Shown: positions 29,129 to 42,038, counted from the stretch's first letter. The stretch is 64,000 bases of DNA from Halobacteriovorax marinus SJ (GCF_000210915.2 NC_016620.1:248001-312000); one strand, 5' to 3'. The notes: generated by a model not told the origin, from the letters alone. A program made the numbers and translations.

Positions 29129-29839
29129 ATGAATAAATTCATAGTATTCTCTTTTTTACTAGTTACTTCTTTATTTTCATTTCAATCATACGCAGCAGAA
29201 GGTGATGCTTATGATTTTTCATGGCTTGATCCAGATAAAGAGGTTTTCGTATTACAAAATCGAAAATTTAGAAAGGCCGGAAGACTCCATGCCACAGGAG
29301 GTTTTGGATTTACGACCTCAGGTGCATTCGTAGATGCAAAAGCATTTCAAGGCCGTGTTGGATACTTTATAAAAGAAGAATTTGGTGTTGAGTTTCTATA
29401 CTCTAAAAATAGCGGAGAAGAAAATTCTACTGCAACATCAGTTCGAAACCCTGGTGGACCAGGTTCATTTCCATTTAGAAGAATTGTCGATAACTACATG
29501 GGAGCGATGTTCTTATGGTCACCTTTCTATAACAAGATAAATACATTTAATAAAATCATTTACATGGATTGGATTCTTGGAATTGGTTTTGCAAAATTAG
29601 AAGAGACAAATAATAGAAATGAAATTACTTCTAGTGGTGGAGATACTTCACTTACTACTGAATCTCATACTGGTCTTATGTGGGACATTGGAGCTAAGTT
29701 CTATATCACTGAACGTTGGGATATAAGAATTGACCTTACTTCTGTTAACTACAAAGCGATGGAAGCGAAAACTGTTGGCGCTGAAGAAATTCTTTATAGT
29801 AATTATGATCTGACAGTGGCTTTAGGTATAACTTTCTAA
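29129..29839 (+). CDS. Outer-membrane beta-barrel domain protein, first gene of Glt-like operon
   Basis: The 236-residue protein has a signal peptide (cleavage near SYAAEG) and then a barrel of alternating strands (GRLHATGGFGFTTSGAF, GRVGYFIKEEFGVEFLYS), ending in LTVALGITF with a terminal Phe. This matches the OMP beta-barrel domain found in deltaproteobacterial gliding and envelope clusters, including barrels that sit beside Glt genes. It starts the six-gene operon, after the addA terminator. An outer-membrane anchor or channel for the trans-envelope complex is the likely role by context; no ligand can be inferred. Confidence 0.78.
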   Translation: MNKFIVFSFLLVTSLFSFQSYAAEGDAYDFSWLDPDKEVFVLQNRKFRKAGRLHATGGFGFTTSGAFVDAKAFQGRVGYFIKEEFGVEFLYSKNSGEENSTATSVRNPGGPGSFPFRRIVDNYMGAMFLWSPFYNKINTFNKIIYMDWILGIGFAKLEETNNRNEITSSGGDTSLTTESHTGLMWDIGAKFYITERWDIRIDLTSVNYKAMEAKTVGAEEILYSNYDLTVALGITF

Positions 29840-29863
29840 ATAAGGATGAACAGGATGTTCTTC

Positions 29864-31288
29864 ATGAAGAAAAAAATAGCGCTCGCATTGACTTTTTTAA
29901 GTCTGAGCACGATGGCAAATACGGATGTAGCATGGAAGTACCTTGTTCAGAGCAAGGGTAGTGTTCGCTATTATCCAAGTGTTATTCAAAATCTAGTTAA
30001 AGAGAAACTTTACTTTGCTTCTATTCCTTATATTAAGGAATTACTGGCAAGAGGAAAAAGCTTTAACAATAAAGAGCTGGATTCATTAATTGATGAAGTT
30101 GTCACTAATGTAGGTGTGAAGCAATTTGAGGTTTTACCTGTATCTTTCCTAGAGAAGTCAAAAGCTCCAACGTTGAGATATATTCTTGCTAAAAAGTATT
30201 TTAGAGCAGGGAAGTATGATCAAGCTCTTAAAGAACTCAATGGCACTATACCAGCGAGACATTCATCGAAGCCTTTTGCTCTATTCTTAGAGGGTTCAAT
30301 CTTTTCAGTTACAAAGAAATATTCATCTGCAATTAAGACATATGATGAGTGTATTTCTAAGTCGGAATCAATTAGCAATCAAGGTAATGAGAATAGAAAG
30401 AGACAGCTCAATATTAATAGAGATTACTGTATTGTAGGTAAGGCTAGGGCCAACTTCTCTCAGGGGAAGTATGAACAAGCGAATCTCGACTATTTAGATC
30501 TAACAAAGTCATCACATATTTGGCCTGAGATTCTATTTGAAGAAGCCTGGAACAGTTTCTATATGAGAGATTATAATAGAACTCTAGGAAAACTCGTGAC
30601 TTATAATTCACCATTCCTATCATTTATATTCAATCCAGAAATTGATGTTCTAAGATCTCTTACATATATGGAGCTTTGTCTTTGGCAAGATACATTGAAA
30701 GTCGTGGATGATTTCTATAGAAAGAATGAAAAGAACCATAAAGATATTGAATCTTTTCTAAGAAAACATGGAAAAGATTATAAATACTTCTACCTTCTTG
30801 CAAAATCAAAGATGAGCGGAAAAGAAAGTGGAAATGAACTTCTAAATAAAATGCTTCACTCTATAACGAGAGATCCAACCTTTAGAGAAATGTTTGATTT
30901 CTTTCATACTGGGCGTGATGAATTTGAAGTGATTAATAAACTTCCAAAGAGTCAGATGAAAAATATCTTAAAGTTAAACTTGAAAGAAGCACTAGTTCTT
31001 CAAAGAAATCTTGTAGGTGCTTATGTGAGAAAGAGGCTTCATCTTGGATGGCATCAAGTAAGAAAAACATTCTTAGATATGAGTTACATTAAATTAGAAG
31101 TACTTTCTCGTAGAAAGGAAAGTCTATATTCTCCAGATGTCTCTATGAATAGGGGACGTGGTGATATTAGAAACTTAAAGCGTACTGATAAGCAATATTT
31201 TTGGAATTTTAATGGAGAGTTTTGGGCAGATGAGCTTGGTGATTATGTCTTCTCTCTAAAATCGGAGTGTAGTGGTAATGCTCTTTAG
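29864..31288 (+). CDS. Periplasmic tetratricopeptide-like protein, Glt-like operon
   Basis: About 474 residues. The signal peptide (MKKKIALALTFLSLSTMA) favours the third of three closely spaced in-frame ATGs (29846, 29855, 29864), the last having AGGA eight bases upstream. The body is helical with TPR-like pairs, for example YDQALKELNG, YSSAIKTYDEC and YEQANLDYLDL at spaced intervals. This matches TPR proteins encoded next to GltE/GltG in gliding clusters (GltC/GltD type). It probably forms part of a periplasmic scaffold. It overlaps the next gene by 11 bases. Confidence 0.75.
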   Translation: MKKKIALALTFLSLSTMANTDVAWKYLVQSKGSVRYYPSVIQNLVKEKLYFASIPYIKELLARGKSFNNKELDSLIDEVVTNVGVKQFEVLPVSFLEKSKAPTLRYILAKKYFRAGKYDQALKELNGTIPARHSSKPFALFLEGSIFSVTKKYSSAIKTYDECISKSESISNQGNENRKRQLNINRDYCIVGKARANFSQGKYEQANLDYLDLTKSSHIWPEILFEEAWNSFYMRDYNRTLGKLVTYNSPFLSFIFNPEIDVLRSLTYMELCLWQDTLKVVDDFYRKNEKNHKDIESFLRKHGKDYKYFYLLAKSKMSGKESGNELLNKMLHSITRDPTFREMFDFFHTGRDEFEVINKLPKSQMKNILKLNLKEALVLQRNLVGAYVRKRLHLGWHQVRKTFLDMSYIKLEVLSRRKESLYSPDVSMNRGRGDIRNLKRTDKQYFWNFNGEFWADELGDYVFSLKSECSGNAL

Positions 31289-34163
31289 AACTTATTTAAG
31301 AAAGATTATCTTATTGATGGTTATTTGTAGCTCTCTTGGAGTTTACGGTAATGATAATGCTCGAAGAAGCGAGCTAGTGAAAGTTATTGATCTAGAGCTT
31401 AGAGAAGTTACACGTCTTAATAAGCAGTCGAGAACTTCTGATCCAGATCTCTTACTTCGTATGGCCGAATTGTTACTAGAGAAGGCTAGACTTGTAAAAG
31501 AATTAGAAAACTCTCGATTTATGCAATACGATGCTGAGAAGAGGCAGAAAATAGATAAGAAGAAATTTTTTAAACAATCTAATAGCTACTTTGTTCAAGC
31601 ACAGAAAACATGTCACTTAATTCTGAAGAAGTTTCCAAGATTTAAGGGGAAGGCCGATGTTTATTATATAATGGCCTATAATGCAAAAGAGTTTCAGCAG
31701 GACAAGAAAGCACAAGCTTACTTCTCTAAATCTGTTAAATCTACAGGTAAAACGACTTTTACATCAACGAGATCAAAGGTTGCTCTCGCAGAGATTTACT
31801 TTAATCAAGGTCAGTATAAGCAGGCAATACCTCTATATGAAAATGCTTTTAGAAATAAGAAATTTAGAGATAAATGGTACACAAAAGATAGTGTAAACCT
31901 TGCTTGGTCATATTATAGAGTCGGTAAAACAAAGAGCGCGATACGTTTAATGCGTGAAGCTTATAAGTTAAGTAAGAGTCCAAATTATGTTGATATGAGT
32001 TTCTCAATTGAAAGAGATCTTGCTTACTTCTATACAGACTCTGGAAGAGTTAATGAAGCCGTTCAATTTTATAAGAGTATTGGGAAGAATATAGCTTCAA
32101 ATCTTTTAAAGGTTTCTACTTACTTAATGAATAGAGGAAAGTATTCCCCTGCTGAAAAGACATTAAAGCAGGCCTTGAATTATAAAGTTTCTGAGCAAGA
32201 GGATATTGAAATCAATATCAAGCTCTTAAGTTTATACGAAAGATTTGGAAAGTATCATAATCACCAAAAAGTGGCGAAAACACTTCTTAAGTATCATGAG
32301 CAAAAGAAGCTTAACCCTGAGCAGGTGAAGGTATTAGAGTATCAGTTAAAAAGAATTAGTGGGATTGTTCAAAAGCAGGTGAGTGGAAAACAGTATAAGA
32401 GTCAAAAGAAGACTTTATACAGTAAGGCCAGACTTGCGGTAGGATACTTTGCATTATTATCTCAATTTGATCCTTTGAATGCCCACAAGTATACATTTCT
32501 TGGTGCTGAAACGTACTTTGCAGCGGGGATGAATAATAGTGCCGTTGAAGAATACGCGAACTCTCTACAAAGAGCTCAAGATATTAAGAATGCGAAATAT
32601 ATTAAGTTATCTAATGAAGGAATGATGGCCGCACTAGGTGGTAAGAATATTTCGAAAAAGAGTAAGGATAAGTATGTAGAAATAGCATATTTAAATTCTC
32701 TAAGAGCTGATAATAAATCAAAGCAGGCAGATAAAGTATATCAAAGGTTATTCGGCCTTTACTTCGATAGAGGAGATATTCCTAATTGTGAGAAAACACT
32801 TCTCTCATATAAGAATAGTTTCCCAAGAAATTACTCTACTCAGGAGGCGATGCTTGCCAGAATTCTAGATCATCATAAAAAGAAGGGTGACTTAGAAAGT
32901 ATTAAGACTTGGGTTGCTCGTATTAATAGTGGTGATTTTAAAGTTACACCTAAATTTGCTAAGAAGACGAAGATTATTATGCTTTCTCTTCAATTTGATA
33001 ATGTAGAAAAGGCGACTAGTAAAGGTGATAAGAAGAAGGCCCTTGCTCTTTATGTTGCAATTTATAAAGATCCTACAACAACTGACAGTGGTCGTGAGAA
33101 TGCGTCTTATAATATTGCCACTCTCTTTCATGAGTTAGGCGATACCTATAGAAGTTTTGCTTGGTCAAAAAGAGCACTTAGTCATATGAATTCAAAGAAT
33201 GTTAAAAGGTTTCAAGGCTCATTTTTGAAAATCTCAAATGATTTATTTGAACATCAAAAAACAAAAGAGAGTGTTGAGCTTTACGCCACTGTATTGGATA
33301 AGATTTGCTTAGAGAGAAGTAGTAATAAAGCAACTTTTTTAAAGAATGCAGTAAACGTCGCACTTGCTGATGGAGATGCAAAAACGGCTAGAGCTGTCTT
33401 GAATAATAGTTATAGATGTAGAATATCTTCGTCAGTCTTGGATGAACTAGAGCTTGAGATGCTTAGGTTTGAAGTTGAAAATAATAATTGGTCAGATGCC
33501 TTAGCTCAAATTAGAAAACTAAGTAAATCAACTCGAATATACCCAGACTTAATCTATCCGCTCTCTAAGGTGAGAAATGCGTATATAGCAGCTGGTAGAG
33601 TTAGTAATGCTAGAGAGCTTGAGAGAGAGATTCTTTCTTATTACTCAAAAATTAGAAATAAGCGAAAAATAGAAATTGAAGGACTAGATGAAGTTGCTCT
33701 AATTAGAATTCAACTCTTAGAGAGTAGAATTCAGTCCTACAAAAGTATTGAACTAGCATTTCCAGATTCAAAGTTTAATAGCTTACTACAAAGAAAGTTC
33801 AAACTTCTAGACGGACTAACAACAGATTTAATCAATGTCATGAGTGTTGGATCTGGGAAGGGAATGATTAAGAGTTATGATCACTTAGTAGATGTTTATA
33901 AGCATATGATTCATTCTATTGATTCTTTTGTTCCTCCTGGAAAGTCTCCTGAATATGTAAGTACTTTTAAAAAGAGTATGAATAATATTTTATTACCTCT
34001 TAGAAAGAAAGTAGATGACTTTAAGAGAGAGGCCATAGCTAAAATCAATAAGGATAATATCTTATCAGATGATAATAAGAATATTATTTTCGAGGGTAAA
34101 TTCTCACCAGAATTTATACTTGGAAATAATGGAGTGTTAATGGATAGAGGTGGAAGCAGATGA
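31278..34163 (+). CDS. Large tetratricopeptide repeat protein, Glt-like operon
   Basis: About 961 residues with an N-terminal hydrophobic signal (YLRKIILLMVICSSLGVYG) and many TPR-type helical repeats, such as KVALAEIYFNQGQYKQAIPL, SYYRVGKTKSAIRLMREAY and AYFYTDSGRVNEAVQFY. No enzymatic motif is seen. In Myxococcus gliding clusters a large TPR protein (GltD-like) spans the periplasm as part of the machinery, and the position here fits. ATG 31278 is chosen over GTG 31272 because of the GGAG upstream. It overlaps the next gene by four bases. Confidence 0.75.
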   Translation: MLFRTYLRKIILLMVICSSLGVYGNDNARRSELVKVIDLELREVTRLNKQSRTSDPDLLLRMAELLLEKARLVKELENSRFMQYDAEKRQKIDKKKFFKQSNSYFVQAQKTCHLILKKFPRFKGKADVYYIMAYNAKEFQQDKKAQAYFSKSVKSTGKTTFTSTRSKVALAEIYFNQGQYKQAIPLYENAFRNKKFRDKWYTKDSVNLAWSYYRVGKTKSAIRLMREAYKLSKSPNYVDMSFSIERDLAYFYTDSGRVNEAVQFYKSIGKNIASNLLKVSTYLMNRGKYSPAEKTLKQALNYKVSEQEDIEINIKLLSLYERFGKYHNHQKVAKTLLKYHEQKKLNPEQVKVLEYQLKRISGIVQKQVSGKQYKSQKKTLYSKARLAVGYFALLSQFDPLNAHKYTFLGAETYFAAGMNNSAVEEYANSLQRAQDIKNAKYIKLSNEGMMAALGGKNISKKSKDKYVEIAYLNSLRADNKSKQADKVYQRLFGLYFDRGDIPNCEKTLLSYKNSFPRNYSTQEAMLARILDHHKKKGDLESIKTWVARINSGDFKVTPKFAKKTKIIMLSLQFDNVEKATSKGDKKKALALYVAIYKDPTTTDSGRENASYNIATLFHELGDTYRSFAWSKRALSHMNSKNVKRFQGSFLKISNDLFEHQKTKESVELYATVLDKICLERSSNKATFLKNAVNVALADGDAKTARAVLNNSYRCRISSSVLDELELEMLRFEVENNNWSDALAQIRKLSKSTRIYPDLIYPLSKVRNAYIAAGRVSNARELEREILSYYSKIRNKRKIEIEGLDEVALIRIQLLESRIQSYKSIELAFPDSKFNSLLQRKFKLLDGLTTDLINVMSVGSGKGMIKSYDHLVDVYKHMIHSIDSFVPPGKSPEYVSTFKKSMNNILLPLRKKVDDFKREAIAKINKDNILSDDNKNIIFEGKFSPEFILGNNGVLMDRGGSR

Positions 34164-35080
34164 AGTATTTATTACCTTTAACTCTATTATTGCTGAGTGC
34201 CTGTTCATCAACTTCAAAGAATGATGTGACGGCCAGCTTTTCTCAAGGCGCTATTGACGAGTTCTCTTGGGTTGAGAATTCAGACTTTCAAAAAGTTCCT
34301 GAGGTGCCTTTTAATTCAAGGTCAGACTCTTATACTGGAGAGGTTTCAACACAAGATTCACTATCAACTGAATCCTTGGCGAGAATCCCTGAACCTAAAC
34401 TAGAGCAAGTAGAAAAGAGTAATGATCTCCTTGTGCAAGGAATGACTCATTGTTATAGAAGAGATTTTGATGCTGGTATAAAAATCTTTCAAGACCAGTA
34501 TAAGAGATATGCATCCCACCCAGGTTATTGGAACTTTGTAGCCAATTGCTATTATCTTCAAGGGAATATGAGAAAAGCGACTCTCTACTATAATAAGTCT
34601 AGGGCCCAAAAGAAAAACTATGCTCCACCAATTAATAATTTAGGAGTTATCTATCAAGCCCAAGGTCGTGACCAAAAGGCATTGGCTGCTTATAAAAGGG
34701 CTTCTGAGGTTGGTGCATTTAGTATGACGCCAATGTTTAATCTTGGTCAGTTATATCTGAAGTATCACCTTGTTAATGATGCAAAGATCATTTTCTCTAA
34801 GTTGTTAAAAAGAAATGCTACAGACGTAGATGCTCTTAATGGTTTAGCAACAAGTTATTTGATGGAAGGTAATGCTAAGGCTGCAGTAAGTCTATTCTCA
34901 AGACTTACTTCTGTTCATTATGCAAAACCACAAGTTGGGATAAACTTCTCATTAGCACTATCTGATGTGGGTAGAAGTAAAGATGCGCATACAATCCTTT
35001 CGTCTATTGATACGGCGAAACTTGGCGGCTATGCGAGTTATTATAATAAAGTACTAAGTAAAGTTTCGGGAGCGAAATAA
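34160..35080 (+). CDS. TPR lipoprotein, GltE-like
   Basis: The 306-residue protein has a lipobox (MKYLLPLTLLLLSACSS, Cys16) and a C-terminal block of TPR repeats (GYWNFVANCYYLQGNMRKA, PINNLGVIYQAQGRDQKAL, PMFNLGQLYLKYHLVNDA). A Ser/Glu-rich linker of about 80 residues follows the lipidated Cys. A TPR lipoprotein is a regular member of Glt operons (GltE/AglT type). The ATGA overlap with the upstream gene and the one-base overlap with the next gene (TAATG) indicate tight coupling. Confidence 0.78.
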   Translation: MKYLLPLTLLLLSACSSTSKNDVTASFSQGAIDEFSWVENSDFQKVPEVPFNSRSDSYTGEVSTQDSLSTESLARIPEPKLEQVEKSNDLLVQGMTHCYRRDFDAGIKIFQDQYKRYASHPGYWNFVANCYYLQGNMRKATLYYNKSRAQKKNYAPPINNLGVIYQAQGRDQKALAAYKRASEVGAFSMTPMFNLGQLYLKYHLVNDAKIIFSKLLKRNATDVDALNGLATSYLMEGNAKAAVSLFSRLTSVHYAKPQVGINFSLALSDVGRSKDAHTILSSIDTAKLGGYASYYNKVLSKVSGAK

Positions 35081-35337
35081 TGAAGATTCTTGCACCATTA
35101 TTTATTTTATTGATGGCCTTTACTTCTGTTAAAGCTCAGGAGTCTAATAAGAAAGTTGTCTATAGATATAAGAAATATGAGAAATTCGACTTTGAAGATT
35201 TAGTAATTGAAGGTGAGACTGGTAATCCTGGAGACCTTTCAATTGCTCCAAGATATCAGAGGAAATTTAAAAATAAACTACCATATAGAAAGAACTTCAA
35301 TGCCGAGATTAGAAAAGGTGTTGAAAGAGTTCGTTAA
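35080..35337 (+). CDS. Small exported protein, CglF-like
   Basis: An 85-residue protein with a signal peptide (MKILAPLFILLMAFTSVKAQ) followed by a basic/acidic stretch containing VVYRYKKYEKFDFEDLVIEG. This tyrosine/lysine-rich pattern followed by an FEDLxIEG motif resembles the small CglF protein found between gltE and gltG in gliding clusters of deltaproteobacteria. The short length makes the match uncertain. It lies between the TPR lipoprotein and the FHA-AgmX protein, 13 bases before the latter. Confidence 0.62.
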   Translation: MKILAPLFILLMAFTSVKAQESNKKVVYRYKKYEKFDFEDLVIEGETGNPGDLSIAPRYQRKFKNKLPYRKNFNAEIRKGVERVR

Positions 35338-35350
35338 CAGGGATTGATAC

Positions 35351-37393
35351 GTGAACATAGATGTTCTAACAGAGCTTAGTGAAGCTTATGAGTTATTACC
35401 AGTAGGAGTAACTCACGGCCAGGAAGGTAAATTAATCAAAAAGAGAAGAGTTCTTGTAGGAAGTACAAGTGCTTGTGATGTTCAGATTAATCACCCTTCT
35501 ATTAATTCTATTCATGCCGTAATTGAAATTTCCAATGGCGTATTTAAAGTATTCGATATGGATACGGCGATGGGAACATATGTAAATGGTAAGAAAGTTA
35601 TTTCAGAAAAATTTGAATTAAATGATACGATTAAATTTGGTTCACTCGAATTTGCCTTTAAAGTTTATTCTAAGGACGATCTGCCTCCTCCGCTAGATAT
35701 GCTTGCAGTAGAATTACCTCCAGTAGTAGCAAGCACTCCTGTAGTTGATACTCCAGTGAAGAGCGAAGCCCCTGAATCTATTGAGCAAGCCGAATTACCA
35801 AAAGCTACTCCAAAGCTTCCAAAGAAGTCACCAGTTTCGTCAACTAAGACAGAAACACTACCAAGAGTAGAATATCCACTGGGAGCTGACCCAAAAGCTG
35901 ACTTTTCAGAATATATTTTTGAAGATGTTGAAACTCTTTATCCTATCTTTGATTACGCACCATCAAAGAGGTCAGTTGAAGTTATTATTTTACATAAGGA
36001 TAGAATCCATAGTGTTGATTATTTAGCTTATAAAGAAGGGATCTATCATTTTGTTGGGGCCAATCCGGGTGCAAGAGATGTTGAGTACGCCTACCTCGGT
36101 AAGAAAGAAAAGATTCCATTTGTGGAAGTTAAAGGAAGTGATGTTTATCTATCATCACTGCCTGGCTATAAAGAGATATGTTTAAATGATTCCAATAAGA
36201 CATTTGCTGGTGGTCAATATCTTTTAAATGATAGTGATATTGTTAGATATGTTAATGGGGATCTACAGGTCTATGTAAGGGGAACGGATGCACCACCTAG
36301 AGTTGCACATGCACCAATCTTACGTAGAGACAAAGAGTTTATGAAGTGGCTCTTTCTAGTCTTTTTATTCTGTCTGATCTTTCTTGGTTTCTTCACTTTC
36401 TATGCTGTTGATGAAGAGCTTGAAACAGAAAAGGCTCCAGAGAGAATTGCAACGATACTTTATAAGCCTAAGAAGTTAACTATGTCTAAATCTAAGGCCA
36501 TAGATAAAACTAAGAATAAACCTAAGAAGGTTATTCAAAAATCTCCTAAGCAGGAAAAGATAAAAGTTACTAAGGAAGTAAAGAAGATTACTCCTAAACC
36601 TGCTAAGAAGAATGTTGCTAAAACTGGTTCTAAGAGCGCAAAGTCTACGGCACCAGCAAAGAAGGCAACTGCTAATAAGGGAAGAGTTAATAAGAATATT
36701 AATAAAGTCTCACCAACTAAGAAAACGGGAGGAAGCCCGACACAAGCTAGAAACTCAGTGAGAAAGGCAAGAGCAAACCGTAATGCTAAGGGAGCAGTAG
36801 ATACATTTAAGTCAGCAGATTTCTCTAGTACACTAAGCTCGCTTATGGCCAAAGGTGGTGGAGCAAAATCTATTCAGGCCGTAAATACTGTTAGTGCTAA
36901 TCCTGGAAGTGGATCTAGTATTGGAGGAAGTGAATCATCTACTCTTACAAGAGCAAAGGTTTCTAATAATGTTGGAAGCTTAACAGGTGTTGCCTCTGGA
37001 AAGTTAGATTCTTCAAAGGGTGTAAGTGGACTTGTAAATAAGAAGAGTATTTATACAGCAGGTGTTCCGTACGAAGAAGTTGTCCTCGGAGGAATGGACC
37101 CTGATGTAATTAGAAAAATTCTCGTAGATAATATTCCTCAGTTTAGATATTGCTATCAGCAAGAACTAGATAAGGCGCAAGCTGCGTTCAATGGGGTTGT
37201 TAGATTAGACTTTGTTATTGGTGCCTCTGGGAATGTCACAAAAGCCAGTGTGGAGTCTGCTTCAAGAGGATTGCCGAGTAAGGTTAAAGGATGTGTTGTT
37301 AACGTCCTTAGAGGGATTAAGTTTCCTGAACCACTTGGCGGTGGAGTTGTTGAGGTTAATCAACCATTTAATTTCTATCCTAAGAGAAAATAA
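35351..37393 (+). CDS. FHA-transmembrane-AgmX/TonB protein, GltG-like
   Basis: The 680-residue protein joins a cytoplasmic FHA phosphothreonine-binding domain (RRVLVGSTSACDVQINHP, INSIHAVIE, MGTYVNGK, about residues 32-85), a linker, and a second folded cytoplasmic stretch. One membrane segment follows at about 332-352. A Lys/Pro/Ala/Thr-rich periplasmic spacer leads to a C-terminal AgmX/PglI-type TonB-like domain (NIPQFRYCYQQEL, GVVRLDFVIGASGNV, about 590-680). This architecture is that of GltG in the Myxococcus gliding machinery, which links motor and envelope complex. GTG 35351 has AGGGA seven bases upstream. A strong terminator follows immediately. Confidence 0.85.
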   Translation: MNIDVLTELSEAYELLPVGVTHGQEGKLIKKRRVLVGSTSACDVQINHPSINSIHAVIEISNGVFKVFDMDTAMGTYVNGKKVISEKFELNDTIKFGSLEFAFKVYSKDDLPPPLDMLAVELPPVVASTPVVDTPVKSEAPESIEQAELPKATPKLPKKSPVSSTKTETLPRVEYPLGADPKADFSEYIFEDVETLYPIFDYAPSKRSVEVIILHKDRIHSVDYLAYKEGIYHFVGANPGARDVEYAYLGKKEKIPFVEVKGSDVYLSSLPGYKEICLNDSNKTFAGGQYLLNDSDIVRYVNGDLQVYVRGTDAPPRVAHAPILRRDKEFMKWLFLVFLFCLIFLGFFTFYAVDEELETEKAPERIATILYKPKKLTMSKSKAIDKTKNKPKKVIQKSPKQEKIKVTKEVKKITPKPAKKNVAKTGSKSAKSTAPAKKATANKGRVNKNINKVSPTKKTGGSPTQARNSVRKARANRNAKGAVDTFKSADFSSTLSSLMAKGGGAKSIQAVNTVSANPGSGSSIGGSESSTLTRAKVSNNVGSLTGVASGKLDSSKGVSGLVNKKSIYTAGVPYEEVVLGGMDPDVIRKILVDNIPQFRYCYQQELDKAQAAFNGVVRLDFVIGASGNVTKASVESASRGLPSKVKGCVVNVLRGIKFPEPLGGGVVEVNQPFNFYPKRK

Positions 37394-37397
37394 AATG

Positions 37398-37423
37398 AAG
37401 GGCCTTTTAAAGGCCCTTTTTTT
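37398..37423 (+). terminator. Terminator of the Glt-like operon
   Basis: AAGGGCCTTT and AAAGGCCCTT form a perfect 10-bp inverted repeat with a one-base centre, followed by five more T. It starts four bases after the stop codon of the GltG-like gene. Confidence 0.9.
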
Positions 37424-37485
37424 GGCAATAATTGATTGGTATGCCCACTCGAACATTTGTTGTATCATGAAAATATGAGGTTCGT

Positions 37486-37722
37486 ATGATAAAGCAAATG
37501 AGTCGTTTGAAAATAGGCGAGAAAGCAATTATTGATAGTTTTCCAGAAAACTCTGAAGAGTCATTAAGGTTATTATCCTTGGGTATTCTACCTGGAGATG
37601 AAATCGAAGTTACTTCGAAGGCCTTATTCTTTGGACCTCTTTCCTTGAAACATTGTAACGACACTTTCTTTGCAATTAGACGTAGTCATGCGAGTAAAAT
37701 TTTCGTGAGAGTGATAGAATGA
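37486..37722 (+). CDS. feoA: FeoA-domain protein
   Basis: A 78-residue SH3-like FeoA domain: RLKIGEKAII, LRLLSLGILPGDEIEV and FFAIRRSHASKIFVRV match the family. FeoA supports ferrous iron uptake through FeoB, but its biochemical role is not settled. GAGG lies five bases before ATG 37486. The gene overlaps feoB by four bases. I looked for a Fur operator in the short upstream region and saw no convincing one. Confidence 0.9.
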   Translation: MIKQMSRLKIGEKAIIDSFPENSEESLRLLSLGILPGDEIEVTSKALFFGPLSLKHCNDTFFAIRRSHASKIFVRVIE

Positions 37723-39686
37723 AAGAAGCTAGAGTCCTAATTGTTGGCTTTCCTAATTCAGGGAAGTCTTCTCTTTTTAATTTATTAAGTGGTCAAAAGC
37801 GAAAAGTCACAAATTATTCAGGGATAACAGTTGATGCTGCCGAGGGCATGCTCTTGTCTAATTCTAGTTACGAAGAGAAAGTGAGTATTGTCGATCTTCC
37901 AGGGATGTATAATCTAGTTCCAACGAGTATTGATGAAGGAGTTTCTCTTCATGCTCTATTAAATTTATCTGTAGATAAACCTTATGATCTAGTAGCACTT
38001 GTTGTAGATTTAGAGAGGTTTGAATCATCAATGTCTCTTTGTCTTGCTCTAAAGGAATTAGTTGGCGAGAAGATGGTTTTAATTATCAATAAAGATGATA
38101 AGGGCGAAATTACTAGAGAGCAGTTAAAAGTTCTCGAAGAGCTAACTGGATGTCGTGCTCTTTCTACTTGTTCAAAAAAAGAAAGATCAAGAGAAATTGA
38201 TCGCTTTTTAAGGGATAATCTTCAGAGAGAAGGGAAAGTTGAGCTAGGAGAGATCACACTTTCAAAAGAGTCTCTCTCCTATATTCCAGACTTTAAAGAA
38301 ATCAAATCAATAAAGATAGAAGAAGACCAAAGGGAAGTCATCTCTAAGCTAGATAATTACCATAAGAGAGCGAGAGAGATTGTTGATAAAGTCGTAAAAC
38401 CCGACACAAGAAAAATTAAGGTTACAAAGAAATTAGATCAAATCCTTATTCATCCTCTCTGGGGATCATTGATCTTTGTCGCAGTTTTCTATTTAATCTT
38501 CAATTCAATCTATGAATGGGCAGGACCCTTAATGGATATGATCGATAATCTCGTTGCAATATTTGGTGACTGGGTGGCCAGTACTTTACCTGAAGGGTAT
38601 TTGAAGAGCTTAATTGTTGATGGAATTATTGCAGGAGTTGGTGGGGTTATAATCTTTGCTCCTCAAATTGGAATCCTCTTCTTTTTACTAAGTCTTTTAG
38701 AGCAATCGGGCTATATTTCTAGAGCTGCAGTGCTAAGTGATAGAGTCATGAGTATTTTTGGTTTAAATGGTAAAGCGTTTCTTCCCTATCTCTCCGGCTT
38801 TGCTTGTTCAATTCCTGGAATAATGGCAGCGAGAACAATACCTAGTAAGAAAGAGAGAATCGCTACAATAATGACTCTACCAATGATTACTTGTAGTGCA
38901 CGCCTTCCTGTTTACATCTTGCTAATTGGAACTTTTGTTCCAGAAAAAAAGATTTTTGGCTTCTTAAACTCTCAGTCTCTATCTTTCTTCTTTCTTTATT
39001 TCTTAGGAAGTTTTTTTGCTCTAACCATGGCCTTAGTCTTTAGACTTTCATATTTTAGAGGAGAGACAAGCTCCTTCTTTATCGATCTACCATATTATCA
39101 AAGACCAAGGTTGAGGATTGCATTTGGAAGTGCATTACAAAAAGTTAAGTTCTTTTGTAAGAAGGCTGGCTCAATTATTCTAGTTCTCTCTATAGGTATC
39201 TGGTTTGCATCTACCTTTCCAAGGTTAGATGCCAACTCTATAGCAGGGTTGTCTGATGATGCTGTCGCCTCAATGCAATTGGAACACTCATTGATAGGGA
39301 AGATAGGTAAAACTCTTGAGCCTGCGCTAGAGCCAATTGGGATGGATTGGAAGATGGGTGTAGGGTTATTAGTGGCCTTCGGAGCGCGAGAGTTATTTGT
39401 TTCTACGATGGGAACGATATATGCCCTAGGTGAAGTAGATGAAGAGTCGTCTACACTTAGGCAAAGATTAAAGATGGAAAAAGATAGTGTGACTGGTGAG
39501 CCTAAGTTTAATCTTGCTGTTGCTTGGTCAATTCTTATTTTCTTTGTCTTCTCTTTGCAGTGTACGAGTACATTGGCAATTCTTAGAAGAGAGCTTGGAA
39601 ACTGGAAGCAGCCTACTTTTATGTTTCTTTATATGGGGGCCTTAGCTTGGTTGGGGTCATTTATTACATATAATATTCTAAGTTAG
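37719..39686 (+). CDS. feoB: Ferrous iron transporter FeoB
   Basis: The 655-residue protein has an N-terminal G-protein domain with GFPNSGKSSLFN (G1, residues 9-20), a Thr-containing switch region (NYSGITVDA), DLPGMYNL (G3) and INKDD (G4). The polytopic FeoB membrane domain follows, with repeated gate regions around SGFACSIPGIMAARTIPS and GARELFVSTMGTIYA. Transport of Fe(II) across the inner membrane is the established role. It is shorter than the roughly 770-residue E. coli FeoB. The FeoC subunit is absent. It forms a feoAB pair set between the Glt-like operon and the AglRQS-like genes. Confidence 0.95.
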   Translation: MKEARVLIVGFPNSGKSSLFNLLSGQKRKVTNYSGITVDAAEGMLLSNSSYEEKVSIVDLPGMYNLVPTSIDEGVSLHALLNLSVDKPYDLVALVVDLERFESSMSLCLALKELVGEKMVLIINKDDKGEITREQLKVLEELTGCRALSTCSKKERSREIDRFLRDNLQREGKVELGEITLSKESLSYIPDFKEIKSIKIEEDQREVISKLDNYHKRAREIVDKVVKPDTRKIKVTKKLDQILIHPLWGSLIFVAVFYLIFNSIYEWAGPLMDMIDNLVAIFGDWVASTLPEGYLKSLIVDGIIAGVGGVIIFAPQIGILFFLLSLLEQSGYISRAAVLSDRVMSIFGLNGKAFLPYLSGFACSIPGIMAARTIPSKKERIATIMTLPMITCSARLPVYILLIGTFVPEKKIFGFLNSQSLSFFFLYFLGSFFALTMALVFRLSYFRGETSSFFIDLPYYQRPRLRIAFGSALQKVKFFCKKAGSIILVLSIGIWFASTFPRLDANSIAGLSDDAVASMQLEHSLIGKIGKTLEPALEPIGMDWKMGVGLLVAFGARELFVSTMGTIYALGEVDEESSTLRQRLKMEKDSVTGEPKFNLAVAWSILIFFVFSLQCTSTLAILRRELGNWKQPTFMFLYMGALAWLGSFITYNILS

Positions 39687-39782
39687 GGCACAATTACCTA
39701 TTTTCTTGGCAATATTAAGACCAGATGGCCGATGTAAGTGCTGGATTTTTAGTAGGGCGCTGATGTCCTATATAATTCAGGC

Positions 39783-40307
39783 ATGATACAGAAAATTAAG
39801 AGCTTCACTGACTTTAGACTGAAGCTCGTTCTCACTATTTTATTTGCGGTACTTTGTATTCTAGAGTTTGTAGACGGTAGGGTTGATGTTTCAGACTTCA
39901 CGATACCAGCTCTATTATTCATTGTATTCAGTGAGATTATCTACACCTTTATCCGTACTCGCGGTGTAAGTAATGTTGAGTATAGTGATTCATCAACACA
40001 ATTAAGTATTTTTGAAAGAGGGAATTTAGGCTTTATTGGGTGGGTAAGGCTCTTAGATAAGAGACAATTATCTAGATTTATTTTTAATATAACTATCTTT
40101 TTTATTTTTCTAGTCGCTCTTATTTTAGATCTTAATATAGTTGCCCATGGGACAAATGATCTTGTGGTGAATATCTTTATGGTCTTGTGGGGGAGTGTCT
40201 TCTTTCTTGTTTCAATTAAGGAGCTACAAAAGGCATTTAGTTACTATAATGTATTTATAACTCAAGTGGCCTTTTGTTTAATTATGAGCTTTTTATTCTT
40301 GCTGTAA
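39783..40307 (+). CDS. Integral membrane protein, unknown
   Basis: A 174-residue protein with about four to five hydrophobic segments separated by short polar loops and no recognised family. The stop lies one base before the end of the convergent TolR-like gene. TATAAT at 39771-39776 lies only six bases before ATG 39783, with no Shine-Dalgarno sequence, so the transcript could be nearly leaderless; the -35 region is poor. The position beside the TolQ-TolR-TolR genes is suggestive but convergent, so it gives little functional information. Confidence 0.62.
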   Translation: MIQKIKSFTDFRLKLVLTILFAVLCILEFVDGRVDVSDFTIPALLFIVFSEIIYTFIRTRGVSNVEYSDSSTQLSIFERGNLGFIGWVRLLDKRQLSRFIFNITIFFIFLVALILDLNIVAHGTNDLVVNIFMVLWGSVFFLVSIKELQKAFSYYNVFITQVAFCLIMSFLFLL

Positions 40308-40308
40308 G

Positions 40309-40821
40309 TTACTCTTCAGACATCACGACAAATTTATACTTTCCAAAGCCCGCTTCTGCTGTCGTGTACATCAATTTCTTTATGTAGCTATATTTGATTG
40401 TTTTATCGACAACGAGGTTAACAACGCCTGAGAACTTCTTGGCATTTGGTGAAGACTTTTCAATCTGCTTAATAACTTCTTTCTTTTTAACGAGCTCGTT
40501 ATAAAGAGGAATGATTCTTCTACCCGTTTTGTCTTCAGCTAGTGAATCATTCTCGGCTTCGAGAATAATTTTATTATCAACCCAGATAGTAGAAGGGGAG
40601 ACTTGTATAATAATCCCAGAAGTATTGAGAGATTGTGATTGAGAGCTTGGAAGCTCAATTCCCTTAGGGACGTTGAGAACGATTCCAGAGGCATTATAGT
40701 TCTTAAGTAGAAAAACGAGAAGAATTACGAGAATATCTAGAAGAGAAGTGATATCGATATCCATCACTTTCTTCTTTCTTCTTACTTTTCCTCTTGCTGA
40801 TATTGATCTAACTCTACTCAT
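40309..40821 (-). CDS. ExbD/TolR-family motor protein (AglS/AglQ-like), second copy
   Basis: A 170-residue ExbD/TolR protein with one N-terminal membrane helix containing the essential Asp (SLLDILVILLVFL, Asp29), a basic cytoplasmic tail before it, and a periplasmic domain. In TolQR/ExbBD/MotAB-type machines this Asp carries the protons that power the motor. It is the third gene of a TolQ-TolR-TolR set on the minus strand, starting two bases after the first TolR-like gene. The arrangement matches AglR-AglQ-AglS of Myxococcus gliding. Confidence 0.88.
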   Translation of the reverse strand: MSRVRSISARGKVRRKKKVMDIDITSLLDILVILLVFLLKNYNASGIVLNVPKGIELPSSQSQSLNTSGIIIQVSPSTIWVDNKIILEAENDSLAEDKTGRRIIPLYNELVKKKEVIKQIEKSSPNAKKFSGVVNLVVDKTIKYSYIKKLMYTTAEAGFGKYKFVVMSEE

Positions 40822-40823
40822 AA

Positions 40824-41354
40824 TTAACTCTGAATGTTTCCAAAAACAATATTGTTAAATAATTCTTTAACTCTAAGATCCATCCCGTCTTTTGTTTTGG
40901 TCCAAATATCAGGATCTGTTTTCTTAAGGTCTCTAACTGTGTCCATGATCTTAACAATATCTTCGTAACTCAGATCAACTTTTGGCTCTAAAACAACTGT
41001 ATTCTCGTCGACGTTTTTTTGTTTTAGGTCAATAAGATAGTCTCTTAGTGCTTGTAGGTCGTAATCACCCTCAGCATTCTTACCAATAGTTTTTCTAACG
41101 TACCCTGGAACACCTGTTAGGATTTGAATTCTTGTGTTGAGAATTTGAAGTGTAAGAGCAAGTGGTTTCTTATTGCTCTTAGGTGGCTGCCTATCTGAAA
41201 CGATAGGCACATCACTTGGTATTTCATTAATATTTAAAAAACGAGATGACATGAGAAGAAAGAAGATGAATATAAAAACCGCATCTAATATAGGAATTAG
41301 ATTTGGCTTTTGAACTTCTTTTTGAATCTTTCTTCTACTAGGTGCTCTATACAC
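40824..41354 (-). CDS. ExbD/TolR-family motor protein (AglQ-like), first copy
   Basis: A 176-residue ExbD/TolR protein. A basic N-terminal tail precedes one membrane helix with the proton-carrying Asp (LIPILDAVFIFIFFLLM, Asp24), and the periplasmic domain follows. It differs clearly from its neighbour, so the pair is an old duplication rather than a recent one. It starts 24 bases after the stop of the TolQ-like gene. A one TolQ, two TolR set is characteristic of the Agl motor. Confidence 0.88.
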   Translation of the reverse strand: MYRAPSRRKIQKEVQKPNLIPILDAVFIFIFFLLMSSRFLNINEIPSDVPIVSDRQPPKSNKKPLALTLQILNTRIQILTGVPGYVRKTIGKNAEGDYDLQALRDYLIDLKQKNVDENTVVLEPKVDLSYEDIVKIMDTVRDLKKTDPDIWTKTKDGMDLRVKELFNNIVFGNIQS

Positions 41355-41378
41355 TGTAACCTCTATCTCAATACTTTC

Positions 41379-42038
41379 TTAGTTTTCTTTTTCTTGTTTT
41401 GTTCCAAGTAGGTCTAGAAGCTTAACAGAGAATTCATCAATCTCATTAATGATCTTCTCTGACTTTGAAGCTAAGAAAGCATGAAGCATCATAACTGAAA
41501 TTGCTGCAAGTAAACCTAGGAATGTTGTGTTCATCGCCTTAGAGATACCTAGAGCAAGTAGTTCTTGCTTTTGTGCTGGGTCAGCTGAACCAACAGCTGT
41601 AAATGTTTCAATTAGACCTTGAATAGTTCCAAGGAGTCCAAAGAGAGTAGAGATGTTTGCAATTAATTGCAGGTAATTCAGTCTAAGCTCTACCTTTGGG
41701 ATCACTTCAAGTGCAGTGGCATCAATTGCATTTTGCATTTGAGCAGTTGATTGATTAGATCTCTTTAATCCGCTTTTTAGAACCTTCGGTAGTGCAGCCA
41801 CTGATCCCGAGCAGACTCTAATCGCGCCTTGAATATCATTTGATAGGATGTATCTTTGAAGCTCGTTCATAAACGATGCACCATCTACATCTAGCTTAAA
41901 AGATAATTTTGAAAAACGTTCTATGGCAATTGCAATTCCGATGGCCCAGATTAGTAGGATAACCCACATGAAGATACCACCACTTTGGATGAATTGTGCA
42001 ATTCCGTTCATTGATGTCGATACAGCTGTTGCTTCCAT
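41379..42038 (-). CDS. MotA/TolQ/ExbB-family proton channel (AglR-like)
   Basis: A 219-residue protein with three membrane segments (about 20-40, 125-150 and 165-190) and the family's conserved LQLIANISTLFGLLGTIQGLIETF and GISKAMNTTFLGLLAAISVMM regions. It would form the pentamer around the TolR dimer. First gene of the motor set on the minus strand. The ATG 42038 is preceded by an AAGGAG-type site. By gene order with two TolR-like proteins, and a GltG-like protein about 4 kb away, a gliding motor is the best inference; ExbB or TolQ proper is less likely, since no tolAB or pal is nearby. Confidence 0.88.
   Translation of the reverse strand: MEATAVSTSMNGIAQFIQSGGIFMWVILLIWAIGIAIAIERFSKLSFKLDVDGASFMNELQRYILSNDIQGAIRVCSGSVAALPKVLKSGLKRSNQSTAQMQNAIDATALEVIPKVELRLNYLQLIANISTLFGLLGTIQGLIETFTAVGSADPAQKQELLALGISKAMNTTFLGLLAAISVMMLHAFLASKSEKIINEIDEFSVKLLDLLGTKQEKEN

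Follow-up and report, generated by a model that had tools for sequence, protein, structure and literature searches.

Which machinery drives gliding in the Bdellovibrionota? A 2026 review describes the gliding motor of this phylum as still unidentified and as a major open problem (PMC13104615), and a 2024 comparative study of predators did not mention gliding. A locus of Halobacteriovorax marinus SJ, at positions 29129 to 42038 of a 64,000-nucleotide stretch (NC_016620.1:248001-312000, hereafter the window), bears on this question, as its genes resemble the AglRQS-Glt machinery of Myxococcus xanthus. We consider it highly probable that these genes specify a trans-envelope force machine of the Agl/Glt type, working as proposed below. 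They represent set A, one of two sister sets that the genome carries. The gliding-motor candidates in the Bacteriovoracia are thereby narrowed to two orthologous, class-wide sets, and an apparent motor exchange in one Bacteriovorax lineage bears on how force crosses the envelope.

The motor genes

The proteins of the locus were scanned with the Pfam and NCBIfam profile models. The first-pass annotation, made from the DNA alone, had proposed an Agl/Glt-like envelope complex with its own AglRQS-type motor, encoded after feoAB on the opposite strand as TolQ-TolR-TolR. The map of open reading frames (ORFs) and the Pfam matches (MotA_ExbB once, ExbD twice) confirmed this arrangement, and the family models and motor tree support the proposal. 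The Asp residue of the TolR type, expected in both TolR copies, was seen in both alignments: in the AglQ of set A it lies within the motif NLIPILDAVF, and D29 in the AglS of set A was invariant in 52 aligned rows. The modeled periplasmic part of AglS matched the periplasmic domains of ExbD and TolR with Z scores of 8.0 to 9.6 for the top five hits.

In a tree of 73 rows, which did not include the M. xanthus Agl sequences, the Glt-linked AglR proteins formed one clade (support 99/100) apart from Escherichia coli TolQ and ExbB and from the TolQ-type protein that the genome also encodes, and the TolQ-like protein of the locus fell within this clade rather than with TolQ/ExbB. A PDB sequence search with AglR returned TolQ/ExbB only. 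As a separate observation, the AglQ- and AglS-like proteins of an otherwise complete set A at L129:16472-17399 carry Asn in place of the proton-site Asp.

The envelope components

The locus is real, and its kind had been correctly recognized. Six intact, close-packed ORFs were found on the plus strand at window positions 29129-37393, and their Pfam and NCBIfam matches agree with the predicted operon of an outer-membrane barrel, TPR proteins, a TPR lipoprotein, a CglF-like protein and an FHA-bearing GltG (Table 1). The strong terminator expected after the operon is present as a hairpin and T run just past GltG. The TPR and FHA proteins did not match unrelated families; the matches were to the NCBIfam models for GltC, GltG and CglF, the last being the same protein as GltF (PMC4488436).

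The remaining components were assigned largely by comparison with other sets. The outer-membrane protein (OMP) is 36% identical to its counterpart in set B, and it was the one OMP_myx_plus match within the set A cluster, which was the range covered for this family. The curated GltD model had no match among the locus proteins in the NCBIfam scan; the GltD-like protein, which like the GltE-like one is a TPR protein of the expected size and location, is homologous to the GltD of set B (E value of 2e-79) and to the protein that occupies this position in the Bd0828-type set of Bdellovibrio (7e-17). Similarly, the GltE-like protein matched the GltE position of the Bd0828 set with an E value of 5e-9, and the position of CglF is conserved in sets A and B.

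The tail of the FHA-GltG protein matched the AgmX/PglI model of NCBIfam above its cut-off (8.6e-19). An AlphaFold2 model of this tail had a mean predicted local distance difference test score (pLDDT) of 75, with ten-residue block means of 68 to 95 from residue 31 onward, and it resembled mainly the C-terminal domains of TonB and TolA. The best Z score was a modest 6.6, with one fold dominating the list. A PDB sequence search with GltG matched the FHA region only.

Table 1. Features of the set A locus and of the genes between its two modules, in window coordinates
Feature	Position	Strand	Evidence
Outer-membrane beta-barrel protein (GltA/GltB-type, 236 aa)	29129..29839	+	NCBIfam OMP_myx_plus 4.3e-32, over cut-off
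GltC-like periplasmic TPR protein, 480 aa	29846..31288	+	NCBIfam GltC 6.2e-36, below equivalog cut-off; GltC tree
GltD-like periplasmic TPR protein, 963 aa	31272..34163	+	TPRs; homology to other sets
GltE-like TPR lipoprotein, 306 aa, lipobox LLSAC	34160..35080	+	GltE model, weak hit (0.0096)
CglF (=GltF)-like small exported protein, 85 aa	35080..35337	+	NCBIfam CglF 2.7e-6, nearly whole length
GltG-like protein: FHA, single transmembrane (TM) helix, K/P-rich linker, TonB-fold tail, 680 aa	35351..37393	+	NCBIfam GltG 4.7e-38
Terminator-like hairpin AAGGGCCTTTTAAAGGCCCTT, then T run; closes the six-gene operon	37398..37425	+	Sequence
feoA	37486-37722	+	
feoB	37719-39686	+	
174-aa membrane protein adjoining AglS, absent from the first-pass annotation	39783-40307	+	Without Pfam/NCBIfam match
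AglS-like TolR/ExbD protein, Asp29	40309..40821	-	Pfam ExbD 3.9e-13
AglQ-like TolR/ExbD protein with proton-site Asp	40824..41354	-	Pfam ExbD 3.8e-13
AglR-like TolQ/ExbB protein	41379..42038	-	Pfam MotA_ExbB 8e-24

A second, sister set in the genome

The genome (two contigs of 3,435,933 and about 1,973 bases) holds exactly two proteins with an AgmX tail, both of them GltG, and two GltC homologues, which correspond to set A in the window and to set B at C1:1.344-1.355 Mb (L012). All genes of set B share one strand. They begin with the gene of a VWA/MIDAS adhesin-like lipoprotein, which is followed by OMP, GltC, a short CglF-like ORF, AglR, AglQ, AglS, GltD, GltE and GltG. The product of the first gene matched the Bdellovibrio MIDAS adhesin model (1.9e-21) and CglD (2e-9), both below the cut-offs. 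The order of set B, with the adhesin gene first, is conserved in relatives, whereas the conserved gene order of the set A cluster includes no adhesin gene.

Sets A and B formed sister clades in the AglR tree (97/88 and 100/98, respectively, with a joint support of 100/98) and were also sisters in the GltC tree (100/99). The two trees agree in this, and sets A and B thus arose by duplication within the Bacteriovoracia.

Proposed mechanism and function

From the components, gene order, motor family, key Asp residues and duplication seen in the sequence, and from the tail fold given by the model, we infer a proton-driven assembly of the following kind. Protons would pass the AglR ring around the AglQ and AglS helices via two Asp residues, and this flow would work the single TM helix of GltG, the FHA domain of which would represent the cytoplasmic, regulatory side. 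The long linker and TonB-fold tail of GltG would cross the periplasm and pull on an assembly of OMP, GltC, GltD, GltE and CglF in and under the outer membrane. Most likely, the machine would apply this force at sites of surface adhesion and so let the cell glide or crawl over surfaces, within biofilm or across prey. Set B carries a MIDAS/VWA surface protein of its own. In M. xanthus, AglR interacts with GltG (PMC3169522), GltA, GltB and GltC form a sub-complex (PMC4488436), and a TonB-like model has been proposed for the machine (PMC5349195).

As the likeliest output we favor, with modest confidence, gliding or surface adhesion, because the nearest Bdellovibrio set has biofilm-predation and surface-induction data: insertions in Bd1481 (aglR) and Bd1483 lowered predation on biofilm (PMC2277423), and expression of bd1480 rises on surfaces (PMC9140294). 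A less probable but still considerable alternative is that the Glt-like envelope machine does not serve movement and acts instead in envelope remodeling, in the export or compaction of a surface polymer, as Nfs does, or in an energized step of prey entry or growth. Bacteria that do not glide also carry core complexes, and the related Nfs system works in sporulation (PMC3169522). The agl operons of Bdellovibrio HD100 also differ in expression, with Bd0412-0420 induced during predation (PMC2797640), and the set A cluster lacks the adhesin gene that the set B cluster carries. However, set A has the complement of AglRQS, GltC to GltG (with GltD- and GltE-like proteins in their positions) and CglF/GltF that Luciano et al. 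tied to likely gliders, and its nearest Bdellovibrio relative by the motor tree is the set with the surface and biofilm phenotypes.

Several points weigh against an Agl/Glt-type machine with a gliding role. The matches of GltC, GltG and CglF to the NCBIfam models are significant, yet far under the equivalog cut-offs, and therefore indicate homology rather than certified identity. A GltJ-type protein is absent, as the AgmX-tail search of the genome found two GltGs only. GltC was present in 141 of the 144 genomes of the phylum sample (Bdellovibrionota) and is thus not tied to one life style. In addition, the motor tree was built without the Agl sequences of M. xanthus.

Conservation across the Bacteriovoracia

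Gene order was compared in 80 named relatives. The recurrent order was AddA-like helicase, OMP, GltC, GltD, GltE, CglF and GltG, followed by the convergent AglS, AglQ and AglR and then by GmhA, Trx and PolA. GltC homologues were present in 37 of the 41 genomes of the family sample. The first-pass annotation had taken the co-location of motor and envelope genes as the sign of a compact version of the machine. This interpretation did not hold, as the convergent layout is the rule in the Bacteriovoracia and the genome has a second full set; set A is, by its sequence relationships, one of two class-wide duplicates of the known Agl/Glt family.

This arrangement is found again in dozens of genomes, so the locus is not a product of chance. 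An ordinary Tol-Pal or Ton energizer with chance neighbors is a very unlikely identity for the three minus-strand genes: the best-scoring curated single-gene names are indeed TolQ/TolR, but two TolR-like genes are present without TolA, TolB or Pal alongside, the motor falls in the Glt-linked clade, its pairing with set A is conserved across the class, and a different locus of the genome (C1:2.735 Mb) has a TolQ-like protein that groups with TolQ.

A probable motor exchange in one Bacteriovorax lineage

Outside the window, several loci of one Bacteriovorax lineage (L074, L079, L085, L086 and others) have a set A that stops after CglF, with GltG and AglRQS gone between CglF and GmhA. The whole-genome AgmX-tail search found no FHA-sized GltG in these genomes and returned short tail proteins instead. 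Their set B (L204, L205, L220, L228 and L229) consists of VWA, OMP, GltC, CglF, GltD, GltE, ExbB, ExbD and a TonB-like protein, and a second trio of ExbB, ExbD and TonB-like genes lies at a separate locus (L224-L227). In genome G162, all four genes of the MotA/ExbB family were accounted for, and none was of the AglR type.

The ExbB proteins of both trios formed one clade (98/98), the sister of which is an ordinary ExbB-ExbD pair without a TonB neighbor in the window genome (L015:4385-5407, at 1.00 Mb). The Ton-like motors are not merely AglR proteins that have diverged: joining them with the AglR clade of sets A and B was rejected, with an approximately unbiased p-value (p-AU) of 6e-11. For the set B trio, the tails fell inside the set B GltG clade (100/100); the tails of the second trio lay on the side of the set A GltGs. 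The N-termini of both TonB-like types were homologous to each other (shuffle Z of 18.5) but not to GltG (Z of 1.5 and 2.0). An SxxxH motif in the TM helix was present in nine of nine chimeric TonBs, all from one lineage and thus not nine independent events, compared to 0 of 28 FHA-GltGs of sets A and B and 0 of 9 Bd-type GltGs; the TM helix of E. coli TolA carries the same motif (SAVLH).

These relationships make it probable that in both sets AglRQS and FHA-GltG were replaced by a duplicated ExbB-ExbD pair and a chimeric TonB retaining the old, set-specific GltG tail. The unlinked trio presumably works with set A, as judged by its tail. The swap fits the TonB-like model, because the tail was kept with each set while the membrane and cytoplasmic half was exchanged, and it provides strong comparative evidence for GltG as a TonB-like force transducer. 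If the replacement is real, the GltG tail is the specific coupling element, a Ton-type motor with a single TolR can drive a Glt complex, and Agl/Glt machines are modular enough for motor exchange. A literature search of incomplete coverage turned up no prior report of an exchanged Glt motor, and we consider this the new part of the analysis.

The genes between the two modules

The first-pass annotation had left undecided whether feoAB matters to the machine. Among the 39 loci spanning GltG to AglS, FeoB lay between the two genes in one only (L053). Within the genus, feoAB separates the modules in three of five genomes, namely the window genome, G002 and G080, the assembly to which L053 belongs; feoB is located elsewhere in G097, and no full-length close copy was found in G170. 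Given this distribution, with feoAB between the modules in only three of five genus genomes and absent from the other spanning loci, the pair is incidental, a recent genus-level insertion and a bystander outside the machine. A functional tie, such as a gliding module that senses iron or is driven by it, has in its favor the position of feoAB between the envelope and motor modules, but all spanning loci beyond the three genus genomes do without it, and we regard this idea as scarcely credible; feoAB as part of the system was rejected by the gene order across relatives.

A homologue of the 174-aa membrane protein was detected in 10 of the 39 spanning loci. Several relatives keep it beside AglS or GmhA, also when they have lost GltG and AglRQS.

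Comparison with the Bdellovibrio and Myxococcus systems

Two genomes, which we take to be Bdellovibrio bacteriovorus HD100 (G092) and Bdellovibrio exovorus JSS (G043), served for comparison. G043 has a single Glt set. G092 has four motor-bearing Glt sets and one motor-less GltC locus, an OMP-GltC-CglF-like cluster at L192:6755-10076. The four motor-bearing sets agree with the four described operons, Bd0412-0420, Bd0828-0838, Bd1473-1483 and Bd2368-2377, known since 2010-2011 (PMC2797640, PMC3169522). The nearest Bdellovibrio relative of sets A and B in the AglR tree is the Bd1473-1483 type, and in the GltC tree both sets fall outside the Bd0828 and Bd1473 groups. Gene order had suggested pairing set A with Bd0828-0838 and set B with Bd1473-1483 as orthologues; this was rejected, as both trees join A and B as sisters. 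By these phylogenies, neither set can be matched to a single Bdellovibrio operon as its simple orthologue.

Bd0828-0838 (L191) shares with set A the order OMP-GltC-GltD-GltE-CglF-GltG and a motor after GltG. However, its motor lies on the same strand, it has two OMPs, and the motor and GltC trees do not support a one-to-one orthology. Bd1473-1483 (L193, with VWA Bd1483, aglR Bd1481 and aglQ Bd1480) has the closest Bdellovibrio motor and a VWA gene as in set B. It differs from set A in gene order, is not singled out by the GltC tree, and encodes an AglQ-like protein with Ala at the TolR Asp site, as seen in two Bdellovibrio genomes (L193:13847-14401 and L208:14682-15224). One Bacteriovorax genome contains a further VWA-bearing Agl/Glt-like set (L203:678-11900) with a motor of the Bd0412/Bd2368 type, which suggests transfer or retention of this motor type outside Bdellovibrio.

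The Nfs sporulation complex of M. xanthus is a paralogous Glt-type envelope complex, in a family where duplicates take other tasks (PMC3169522); its function is known in sporulation only, and it is likened to set A here by description rather than by sequence. The core Agl/Glt complex comprises GltC, GltD, GltE, GltG, AglR, AglQ and AglS (Luciano et al. 2011), and GltJ, GltH, GltI and GltK are absent from Bdellovibrio (PMC3169522). Compared with the M. xanthus AglRQS-Glt machine (G1/G2/M1), set A has one outer-membrane barrel in its cluster instead of a GltA/GltB pair, a genome without a GltJ-type tail protein, scores below the equivalog cut-offs, and motor and envelope genes that converge at one locus. 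The two systems have in common an outer-membrane barrel, GltC, TPR proteins in the GltD and GltE positions, GltF/CglF, a GltG with FHA, TM and TonB-like parts, and a three-gene TolQ-TolR-TolR motor.

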